NCBI GenBank assembly: GCA_027064085.1
Contig: JAMOQH010000067.1
Span: 1 to 14,142, forward strand
Direction of reading: 5' to 3'
Source: a bacterium
Lineage (GTDB): Bacteria > UBP6 > JAFGXH01
DNA length: 14,142 bases
Shown: positions 4,460 to 14,142 of the stretch, piece after piece
Layout: each line of letters starts with the position of its first letter
Numbering within the stretch: position 1 is the stretch's first letter
Notes under the pieces: generated by a model
What the model was told of the DNA's origin: nothing
The model's database searches: none
The model's input: only the letters and a program-made list of their open reading frames with translations
Program-made: the position numbers and the translations under genes

Positions 4460-4771
4460 CTATTTCTTATCCGCTATACCAAAAGCCTTCCAACTCCCCT
4501 TATCAACTTTAATCTTAATCAACTTCTTATACTCAGCATAAACCTTCACTGCCTCATCTTTCTTCTTTTCCAATGCCTCTGTTTTAAGTTTCAATTCAGT
4601 TTTCAATTTCTCCTGCTCAGAATCCAATTTTTCTAATTCAGCCTTAAATTCTTTTAATTTTGTACCTGCCTCTGCTGTCATTCCTACAGTTGAAAGAATT
4701 TCCACATAATCAGGGATTGCTTCACCCATTAAATTCAAATTTGTTAATAATTCGTTAAAACTTGTATTCAT
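4460..4771 (-). CDS. Small coiled-coil protein of unknown function
   Basis: A 103-residue protein starting MNTSFNELL. An ATG at 4783 is in frame, but it forms part of the ribosome site (GGAGGAC, 4775-4781), so the ATG at 4771 is the start. Residues 1-40 include a hydrophobic N-terminal part (LLTNLNLMG, IPDYVEIL). About 41-92 is a strongly charged Lys/Glu heptad-rich helix, very likely a coiled coil. The end is WKAFGIADKK. I recall small proteins with this architecture (a coiled coil ending in W-x-x-F-G-I-x-D-K) recurring in several bacterial phyla, but no function that I know. It is divergent from the Rpn gene, 47 bases start to start, and followed by the 20-bp palindrome. Cytosolic; no signal peptide. 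Confidence 0.8.
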   Translation of the reverse strand: MNTSFNELLTNLNLMGEAIPDYVEILSTVGMTAEAGTKLKEFKAELEKLDSEQEKLKTELKLKTEALEKKKDEAVKVYAEYKKLIKIKVDKGSWKAFGIADKK

Positions 4772-4805
4772 AATGTCCTCCATTAATTAAAAAAATAAAA
4801 TTTGT

Positions 4806-4830
4806 ATCTAGGATATCTTTGATCCTAGAT
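4806..4830. repeat. 9-bp inverted repeat at the start of the Rpn gene
   Basis: ATCTAGGAT (4806-4814) pairs perfectly with ATCCTAGAT (4822-4830) across a 7-base loop. The loop contains the TTG that opens the Rpn frame (4819-4821). It lies in the intergenic region between divergent genes and shares the core TAGGAT with the neighbouring palindrome at 4850-4870. Confidence 0.75.
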
Positions 4831-5757
4831 GATTTTGTGATTATTATAGATAGGATATACAATATCCTATTTGTAAAAGAACTTGATTTTAGAACTTTAA
4901 GAAGGGTTGACAGACGGGGCGTGTCTGAATATGATAAAGATAAAACTACTGATGTTTTATGGAAAATTAAATATAAAGGTCAATTTATTTATATAGGTAT
5001 TTTAATAGAAGTACAATCAACCAATGATAATACTATGCCTATTAGATTTTTAGATTATATTGGTTTATTTTATGAAAATCAGTACCAATCTTTAAAAATG
5101 AATGAGAAAATTATACCAATAATTCCAATATTATTATATATTGGTAGTGAAAACTGGAATGCAAAAATTAAATTTCATGATTTAGTTAATATACCTGATG
5201 AAAGTTTAAATAAATTTATCCCTGATTTTGAGTATATTCCAATAATATTAAATGATATTACTAAAGAAAAGCTTACAAAAGCAGAATCAATGCTGACAAG
5301 GTTACTTTCTTTAAATAAAAGTGAAAGCTTAGATGATTTCAGAGAATTATCAGAAAATATTTTTAATCTAATACTTACATTTACTGATAAAACGAGGCAA
5401 GAAAAGTATTCTAAACATTTTCTAAAATATGTACAACAAGTTTTAGGTAAAAAAATAGATCAAAAAAGAACTAAAGAAATAATAGAAGATATTGAACAAG
5501 GAGGTGATATGTTTTTTGTAACATTAGAACATTTGTTTGAAGATGATAAAAAAGCACTGGAAGATGCAAATAAGGCTAAAGAAAAAGCCTTAAAAAAAGA
5601 GGAAAAAGAGAGGAAAGCCAAAGAAAAGGCCTTGAAGAAAATAGAAAAGAGTGTTTTAAAGATGCTTAAAAAAGGTCTTTCTGTTGACGAAATAGCTGAT
5701 TTTCTTGATTTAAGTAAAAAAGAAATAGAGAAAATAAAAAAAGATAATAAAGTATAG
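4819..5757 (+). CDS. Rpn-family recombination-promoting nuclease / PD-(D/E)XK transposase-like protein, N-terminus apparently short
   Basis: The 312-residue frame matches the Rpn/YhgA-like (Transposase_31-type) family: ELDFRTLRRVD (21-31), DVLWKIKYKG (45-54), the PD-(D/E)XK core with D45 and IEVQS (E64, Q66), then MPIRFLDYIGLFYE (73-86) and IPILLYIG. The tail (about 245-312) is a Lys/Glu-rich helix with two 14-residue repeats and a helix-turn-helix-like end (LSVDEIADFLDLSKKEIEKI). Family members usually have some 30-45 further N-terminal residues (with an FKxLF-type segment) that are absent here. The only starts are TTG (4819) or GTG (4837), both without a ribosome site and lying among palindromes, so the 5' end may be truncated. 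An internal ATG with a perfect Shine-Dalgarno site lies at 5509. Rpn proteins are DNA endonucleases linked to recombination and phage defence. Confidence 0.8.
   Translation: MILDDFVIIIDRIYNILFVKELDFRTLRRVDRRGVSEYDKDKTTDVLWKIKYKGQFIYIGILIEVQSTNDNTMPIRFLDYIGLFYENQYQSLKMNEKIIPIIPILLYIGSENWNAKIKFHDLVNIPDESLNKFIPDFEYIPIILNDITKEKLTKAESMLTRLLSLNKSESLDDFRELSENIFNLILTFTDKTRQEKYSKHFLKYVQQVLGKKIDQKRTKEIIEDIEQGGDMFFVTLEHLFEDDKKALEDANKAKEKALKKEEKERKAKEKALKKIEKSVLKMLKKGLSVDEIADFLDLSKKEIEKIKKDNKV
4850..4870. repeat. 9-bp inverted repeat inside the 5' end of the Rpn frame
   Basis: ATAGGATAT (4850-4858), three-base loop, ATATCCTAT (4862-4870): a perfect, tight hairpin that encodes residues 11-17 of the Rpn frame. 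It shares the TAGGAT core with the palindrome at 4806-4830. Together they put four half-sites of one motif within 65 bases. Confidence 0.78.
5498..5508 (+). promoter_or_regulatory. Perfect Shine-Dalgarno sequence inside the Rpn gene
   Basis: AAGGAGGTGAT is the full complement of the canonical 16S rRNA 3' end and sits directly in front of an in-frame ATG (5509), with 4 bases between AGGAGG and the ATG. It is the best ribosome site in the whole window, and the main Rpn start has none. It is the main evidence for the internal small protein. Confidence 0.7.
5509..5757 (+). CDS. Predicted gene-within-gene: C-terminal short form of Rpn (RpnS-like)
   Basis: An ATG at 5509, in frame with the Rpn gene (residue 231), would give an 82-residue protein sharing the Rpn stop codon. 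It begins MFFVTLEHLFEDDKKALED, continues into a Lys/Glu-rich coiled-coil stretch with two copies of KAKEKALKK 14 residues apart, and ends in the helix-turn-helix-like DEIADFLDLSKKEIEKI. A perfect Shine-Dalgarno sequence precedes it. For E. coli Rpn proteins, small C-terminal forms translated from inside the gene are known to block the toxicity of the full nuclease; this layout fits that model. The sequence shows the ribosome site and frame; translation and antitoxin activity are inferred. Confidence 0.55.
   Translation: MFFVTLEHLFEDDKKALEDANKAKEKALKKEEKERKAKEKALKKIEKSVLKMLKKGLSVDEIADFLDLSKKEIEKIKKDNKV
5572..5655 (+). repeat. Tandem 42-bp (14-residue) repeat in the Rpn tail
   Basis: Two adjacent units encode KAKEKALKKEEKER (5572-5613) and KAKEKALKKIEKSV (5614-5655). 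The first nine residues are identical, with synonymous base changes. The period of 14 residues, two heptads, would preserve coiled-coil phase when units are gained or lost. Confidence 0.7.
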
Positions 5758-11919: not shown

Positions 11920-11958
11920 TTTAGTGTGTATTTTTTTTTAGAATAATTGGAGGATTTT

Positions 11959-14142
11959 ATGATAAAGTTAACATTAGTATTTTTGTCTTTTATGCTAGCA
12001 GGTAGTTTATTTTCTGCTAATTCTGAAGTTGGAACCGATTCTCCAATGAAAGTTTTTGTTTCAAATGGCCATTATCAGGTTTTTTATGATGAAGACTCTA
12101 ATGTTTACCCAAGAGGAACAAATAATGATAGTGATTCTGGCCCTGTATTATCACTTGATGGTGCGGTATATGGTTATAATGTTCAAGGCCCTAATACTGA
12201 TCTTTCAAATAATGGTGGAGTTGATTGGACTCAAAGCTCTCAAGTATCAACTAATTCAACTATAATAGACACTTTGGATTTAGGTAATAATGTTTATATA
12301 CAACAAAGAACGGTCTACGAAGAAGGAAAGTCTTATTTTTGGATTTATTATACCATTGCAAACCTCAGTACAACAACATTTAACGATGTAAAATTTATTT
12401 TAGCTTTAGATGCTTATACCAATAATGACGACAATGGTAATGGAGAGAACTCGGATACCATGAAAGTAATTGGTGATATAGAAACTAATGGGGGAAAAAC
12501 AATCAGGCAATCTCTATCTGGTTATTTCATGAACAATAATTCTTCTATATCTGATATTAAATATTATGAAAACACTTTCGATAGAGTATGGGATAAAGTT
12601 AAAGACTTTAGTTTTGATGATACGATAAGAACAAATAATCATGATTCTGGTTTTGGTTTACAAGCCCAAAAATTAACAGCTTTAGCTCCAGGCGAAACAT
12701 GGAAGTTTAAAGTATTATGGCAAATTATGCCCGATACAGTAACACAAGATTGCTTATTTCAAGATGCAGATAATGATGGTATAGTAAATGTAGAAGATAA
12801 CTATGATTGTTTTAATCAAGTTGACACAGATGGAGACGGTAACAATGATAATGAAGATACAGATAGCGATAATGATGGTATCTTAGATACAACTGATAAC
12901 TGCAGATTAGTTGCTAACCCTACTCAAGAAGATGCCGATAATGATGGTGTTGGTGACGCATGTGATAATTGTATAAATAAAATAAATCCAGAACAATTTG
13001 ATGCAGATAACGATGGCTTAGGTGATATTTGCGAAGACTTAAATAATAATGATGATTTAACTGATGATGATACAGATAATGATGGTACTCCAAACTACCT
13101 AGACGATGACGATGACGATGATGGAGACCCAACAATAACAGATTGTTCCTATTTAGATAACAGTGTTTACCATGGGGCATCTGAAGTTTGTGATGCCAAA
13201 GATAATAATTGTGATTCTTTTATTGATGAAGGAAATACATGTAATAATTGCGAAACAAAAACTTACAATGGTCATACCTATTTGTTTTGTGATGAATTAA
13301 AAAATTGGAATGAAGCAAAAACAATATGTAATGGATATGGTTATACTCTTGTTTCAGTTGAAAACAACGAAGAAAACTCTTGGTTGGTTTCTATGTTACA
13401 AACCCTATTTAGTGAAAGAACTGCTTGGCTTGGGTATACCGATGAAGCACAAGAAGGAACTTGGCTTTGGAGTAATAATTCTATAGCTACTTTTGAAGAT
13501 TGGCATATAGGAGAGCCAAACAACTCAGGAACTGAAAATTGTGCTCATATATGGGAAAATCAAGGTGGTGATTGGAATGATATAAGTTGCAATAATAATT
13601 ATAGATATATTTGTGAATTAGGAACAGATTTTACAACTTGTCAAAGCGGTGATATGGATAATGATGGTTACTGTAATGATACCGACCCAGATATAGATGG
13701 AGATAATGTAAATAACAATGTAGATACTGACCCTAATAACCCTAATGTATGTAGTGATACCGATAATGATACATGCGATGATTGTTTAAATGGTATTTAT
13801 GACCCTGCTAATGATGGCACAGATACCAATGGTGATGGAATTTGTGATGCTGGTGATGAGTGTACTCCTAACCCTTGCCAAAACGGTTCAACTTGTACAG
13901 ATGGAGATAATTCTTATACTTGTGACTGTACAGGAACTGGTTATTCTGGTACGAATTGTGATACTGATATAGATGAATGCTCAGCAGGAACAGATAATTG
14001 TGATAACAATGCCTCCTGTACAAACACAGATGGTTCTTTTACTTGTGCATGTAATAGTGGCTACACAGGAGACGGAGTAACATGTACAGATGTTGATGAA
14101 TGTGCAAACAATACTGATAACTGCGACAGTAATGCTACTTGT
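11959..14142 (+). CDS. Large secreted mosaic protein: TSP3-like calcium repeats, MopE-type motif, C-type lectin, EGF modules (3' end beyond window)
   Basis: Open for 728 codons with no stop, so incomplete. Signal peptide at 1-20 ([15 protein letters not shown]). Residues 25-250 form an unrecognised, probably beta-rich domain. From 269 (DADNDGI) to about 390 run thrombospondin type 3-like Asp/Asn calcium repeats, including seven Asp in a row at 382-388. At 395-430 is a MopE-like motif ([17 protein letters not shown]). A complete C-type lectin domain spans 431-553 with both sugar/calcium motifs, EPN (519-521) and WND (539-541), and paired cysteines. A second acidic repeat block covers 562-634. 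EGF modules begin at 635; the second (670-710) and the cut third (from 711) start DxDEC, the calcium-binding type. Start fixed by GGAGG (11949-11953). Expected to be exported and calcium-stabilised, perhaps an adhesin for glycan surfaces; ligand unknown. Confidence 0.9.

Follow-up and report, generated by a model that had tools for sequence, protein, structure and literature searches.

A truncated Rpn nuclease gene with a conserved internal ribosome site for a putative RpnS-type antitoxin

An antitoxin translated within a nuclease gene has been published for the Rpn systems of Escherichia coli and Clostridioides difficile (Zhong et al., 2023, PMC10327210). In this family one frame encodes the nuclease, RpnL, and translation from a ribosome site in its interior separately yields the C-terminal short form, RpnS, that binds and blocks RpnL. 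The RpnS of E. coli RpnA starts at Met244 and disappears when K240, E241 and M244 are mutated, and internal transcription starts also exist in the E. coli rpn genes (PMC10327210). On the nuclease side, the RpnA substitution D11A abolishes recombination, toxicity and SOS induction alike, as do D63A, E82A and Q84K (PMC5350276). The C. difficile RpnS was shown upon expression of the gene in E. coli (PMC10327210), so that an occurrence outside E. coli, which the original prediction for the present locus had put forward as a new extension of the principle, is no longer novel.

The stretch analysed here (the window) is a whole contig of 14 142 nucleotides (C67) from an AT-rich, 3.65-Mb bacterial genome (G000), and the features of its Rpn locus are collected in Table 1. 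The frame matched PF04754 well above the curated cut-off (E = 4.9e-21; 75.7 bits vs 21), the match spanning profile positions 30-202 of 203. Like E. coli RpnA (RpnAL/RpnAS), it is a PF04754 nuclease gene in which an internal Shine-Dalgarno sequence (SD) and its ATG occupy the corresponding alignment position, with a short, helical predicted C-terminal product with a helix-turn-helix (HTH)-like end. Unlike RpnA, its nuclease lacks the N-terminal helix, its tail is 82 rather than 49 amino acids long, and where RpnAS has EKG-type four-residue repeats this tail has a charged coiled coil. The C. difficile gene is likewise an rpn gene of a distant bacterium, with an RpnS proven in E. coli, but it is used as a toxin-antitoxin gene with no truncation reported, whereas the window copy is truncated. 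In stand-alone rpnS genes (E. coli ypaA; DUF4351 proteins), as predicted for the window, RpnS is encoded in a frame that contains no active nuclease; those are separate short genes, whereas the putative antitoxin of the window is embedded in a truncated nuclease frame. The window gene is a new Rpn member in an unusual state, its nuclease half broken and its antitoxin start intact.

Table 1. Features of the Rpn locus, in positions of the window.
Feature	Position	Strand	Remarks
Rpn (Transposase_31, PF04754) open frame	4819-5757	+	TTG start; 312 amino acids; N-terminally truncated PD-(D/E)XK nuclease and C-terminal tail
Two 19-nt quasi-palindromes, TAGGATATN5ATCCTA, 42 nt apart	4805-4869		At the truncation junction
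Remaining nuclease domain	4873-5403	+	D (TTD-V) and E-x-Q (EVQ) kept; N-terminal helix with the Asp11 equivalent absent
Promoter-like TTGACA-N17-TATGAT	4907-4935	+	11 of 12 consensus match only; inside the open frame, 5' of the internal start
Internal SD, AAGGAGGTGAT	5498-5508	+	Rank 1 of 256 candidate starts (-10.9); kept in 44 homologues
Predicted RpnS-type short form, 82 amino acids, long helix and HTH-like end	5509-5757	+	ATG at the RpnA Met244 position; AlphaFold; PF00196

The internal SD lies immediately upstream of ATG 5509-5511 (reading GAA CAA GGA GGT GAT ATG), which is codon 231 of the frame and leaves 82 amino acids plus the stop, exactly as had been predicted. SD strength was expressed as duplex energy with CACCUCCU, and the ranking took in every start codon, on either strand of the window, that is followed by an open frame of 30 codons or more. 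The site had been called the best in the window by far; the rank stands, the margin was overstated, given that the start codons of two other ORFs, at 4771(-) and 11959(+), each reach -9.3. The accompanying statement that the frame's own start has no ribosome site was slightly too strong, as TTG 4819 is preceded at 5 nt by a weak AGGA (-3.7). The AGGAG-5 nt-ATG spacing at 5509 is the same as at gene starts 402(+) and 3696(-), and RNA structure around the internal start showed nothing unusual (z -0.9). Two other ORFs of the window may be mentioned: a coiled-coil-like, 107-amino-acid ORF (4460-4783, reverse strand), divergent from the rpn gene and with a strong SD at ATG 4771, and a long secreted-looking protein identified by eye (11947-14142, forward strand), whose 3' end is lost at the contig edge and in which calcium-type repeats rich in Asp occur alongside a stretch resembling C-type lectins and EGF-like Cys repeats. 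When synonymous codons were resampled from the gene's own usage, an SD of equal strength arose in about 9% of draws (p ~0.09), because GGA, GGT and GAT are common codons; a single gene is therefore weak proof, and the comparison of homologues is decisive.

Rpn genes were gathered from the genome of the window, its phylum, hundreds of other genomes and E. coli K-12 (rpnA, rpnB, rpnC and rpnE). The test set comprised 44 non-redundant PF04754-type genes, the four of E. coli among them, which grouped into 22 clusters at a threshold of 50% identity; genes cut by contig ends, truncated, frameshifted or belonging to the TIGR01784-only branch lay outside it, branches being assigned by the places listed in PF04754 searches. 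ATG 5509 fell within two alignment columns of E. coli RpnA Met244 (PMC10327210), which, together with the PF04754 membership, supports the RpnS-type reading originally proposed. The set had been restricted beforehand to genes in which an SD could be detected at that start, and two sites misplaced by the large alignment (L021 and L045) were placed by hand. In it, all 44 genes carried an SD of -7 or better before the aligned start (ATG in 41, GTG in two and TTG in one), a strength reached by 4% of 563 control internal starts in the same genes. No intact PF04754 gene was seen to fail the SD criterion in the genome scans; weaker sites were found in three named plasmid genes, from Arsenophonus (-5.4), Acetoanaerobium (-6.3) and Citrobacter (-6.4). 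Members of the TIGR01784-only branch mostly had no start at the Met244 column, and five of them (L057, L084, L085, L058 and L059) displayed a strong SD and ATG at other positions, e.g. AAAGGAGGTCATGAAA ATG.

Within the 44-gene set the residues encoded over the SD vary (GGD, EED, KED, QED, GGE, EEV and EV) and its core is found in each of the three codon phases. Of the 51 Glu, Lys and Gln codons that stand at -4 and -3, 49 ended in G, against approximately 17 expected from each gene's own codon usage (24/25 vs 9.0 at codon -4, z 7.1; 25/26 vs 8.3 at codon -3, z 7.7; Stouffer Z over clusters, 5.3), and no other codon from -15 to +11 showed an excess above z 3.2. Paralogues in the genome of the window swap K, Q and E at one position and keep AGGAG, and in one of them (L003) Met is replaced by Val with the start codon retained as GTG. 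The nearest relative of the window protein (L016, 47% identical) reads GAG GAG GAG GAT ATG against CAA GGA GGT GAT ATG in the window, different in residues and phase but with the same SD. Because the SD is kept over differing amino acids, in three phases and with a G-ending bias, these alignments indicate selection at the nucleotide level, i.e. that the constraint across the PF04754 branch falls on the nucleotides of the ribosome site and not on the protein alone. The comparison of homologues at synonymous positions, proposed along with the original prediction, has therefore come out in its favour, and these statistics carry further an earlier published proposal that the arrangement is widely conserved. 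The aligned-site test took the place of a first null that compared the strongest SD of the whole C-terminal zone with whole-gene synonymous shuffles and proved too blunt (median p 0.28). A peptide-pattern search of the genome and viral collections gave no close homologue of the window protein, phage records gave no match, and an alignment search returned two loci, with Rpn frames identical to loci known from genomes G001 and G002.

Modelled alone and without an alignment, the 82-amino-acid short form folded into two helices (residues 4-54 and 59-80; AlphaFold, pLDDT 75), and residues 44-74 matched PF00196 (GerE) just above its cut-off (24.6 vs 23.5 bits), in agreement with the coiled coil and HTH-like end foreseen from the sequence. 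E. coli RpnAS (7TH0) is a dimerising three-helix bundle; the single-sequence model of the window tail gave two helices, a profile of related tails matched RpnAS marginally (E = 0.075), and a fold search with the short form gave no fold match and was uninformative. The four-residue repeats that are common, but not universal, in the first helix of RpnS are absent from the window tail, in which TRF found no 12-nt repeat array; many paralogues in the same genome carry EKGI repeats. A full-length model, also made without an alignment, was too poor for use (pLDDT 53).

The nuclease half is damaged, a feature new to this analysis and absent from the original prediction. TTD and EVQ align with homologues and provide the equivalents of Asp63, Glu82 and Gln84, but the N-terminal helix bearing the Asp11 equivalent is missing from the frame. 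Other PF04754 matches away from contig edges mostly start at profile position 1-7, against 30 in the window, and two members of the window's own subfamily (L016 and L030) have a full N-terminus with the Asp (...NPLDKFFKRVF... or ...HPIDKFFRRFF...). A stop at 4771-4773 closes the frame upstream, leaving no space for the missing helix. The first 30-45 nuclease residues are gone, with palindromic DNA in their place. The two quasi-palindromes occupy 4809-4827 and 4851-4869, the first being terminator-like; a mobile-element origin was rejected, since the assembly contains no further exact match to the motif. As for the promoter-like sequence, the L016 homologue has no match of 10 of 12 or better at the corresponding position. 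Because the Asp11 equivalent is gone, though those of Asp63 and Glu82-x-Gln84 stay, the long form is most likely an inactive nuclease; the window protein is an Rpn homologue that probably lacks RpnL activity.

We consider it reasonably likely that ATG 5509 is an RpnS start, its ribosome site maintained by nucleotide selection in the PF04754 branch, that the 5' loss of the Asp11-equivalent helix has left a dead long form, and that the 82-amino-acid RpnS, a putative helical oligomerisation domain, is the chief functional product, if not the sole one. The original suggestion that mainly the short form is made gains strength because the nuclease half lacks both the N-terminal helix and the Asp11-equivalent residue. 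The same absence of an N-terminus, together with the weak TTG start, the mere ~48 bp separating it from the divergent start codon at 4771(-) and the numerous Rpn fragments in these genomes, would also suit a decaying pseudogene that lost its 5' end and makes nothing useful, the internal ribosome site being a relic of a complete rpn gene. The 312 codons that are still open, an internal SD that is the strongest of the window and an intact tail with its HTH-like end speak against such decay, which we regard as unlikely; recent decay would nevertheless give the same open frame, SD and tail.

A complete and active RpnL/RpnS pair, in which the long form started at TTG still works as a nuclease whose N-terminus has diverged, would fit the retained D and E-x-Q core residues, the open frame and the AGGA 5 nt before TTG 4819. 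It is hard to reconcile with the additional N-terminal residues, in most cases including the helix Asp, of all full-length relatives examined, with the loss of all RpnA phenotypes in D11A (PMC5350276) and with the upstream stop that leaves the missing helix no room, and we hold it to be quite improbable. Least credible of all, to the point of being very improbable, is that the SD-like string arises by chance from Gly-Gly-Asp encoded in common AT-rich codons and that no internal initiation takes place: the chance level of synonymous draws in the window gene would allow it, but 44 homologues with an SD and start at the same place, over varied amino acids and in three phases, and a G-ending bias confined to the SD codons argue otherwise.

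Related loci show comparable damage. A copy of an L016-like rpn gene in genome G001 (L019, contig C252; 95% identical upstream and 85% downstream) carries an out-of-frame deletion of 424 bp near its start, which spares both the tail and the internal ribosome site. In a single-contig genome (L131, G121:C1), a frameshift just before the site separates the nuclease from a GTG-started tail preceded by GGAGG, GGAGGCGAGATCGTG being intact downstream. Antitoxin-only genes may arise by truncation at the 5' end, as in the window, by an out-of-frame deletion, as in L019, or by a frameshift, as in L131, RpnS and its ribosome site being kept in each. It is a tentative and rather doubtful proposal that Rpn loci repeatedly decay in this way to antitoxin-only genes, the embedded RpnS persisting as an orphan blocker of related Rpn nucleases of the same genome. 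The reverse loss was also found, two loci (L047 and L049) being without a tail, which makes retention of the antitoxin a pattern for testing and no established trend. In the genome of the window, the PF04754 and TIGR01784 branches together account for at least 15 Rpn genes or fragments; many of these lie at contig ends, which suggests that near-identical Rpn copies broke the assembly. Three loci of this genome (L013, at 1491-1833 on the reverse strand, L012 and L014) hold short ORFs matching Rpn tails only, with KEK/QKEKEKA repeats and an HTH-like end, and possibly represent stand-alone RpnS genes or remnants.

By this sequence-only test, embedded Rpn antitoxins would be a trait conserved in the PF04754 branch and no peculiarity of E. 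coli, and codons ending in G at -4 and -3, ahead of an aligned start, may serve as a simple signature by which to find them in genomes without annotation. Should the truncation reading be right, the window would hold a toxin-antitoxin gene that has lost its toxin and kept its antitoxin within one frame.
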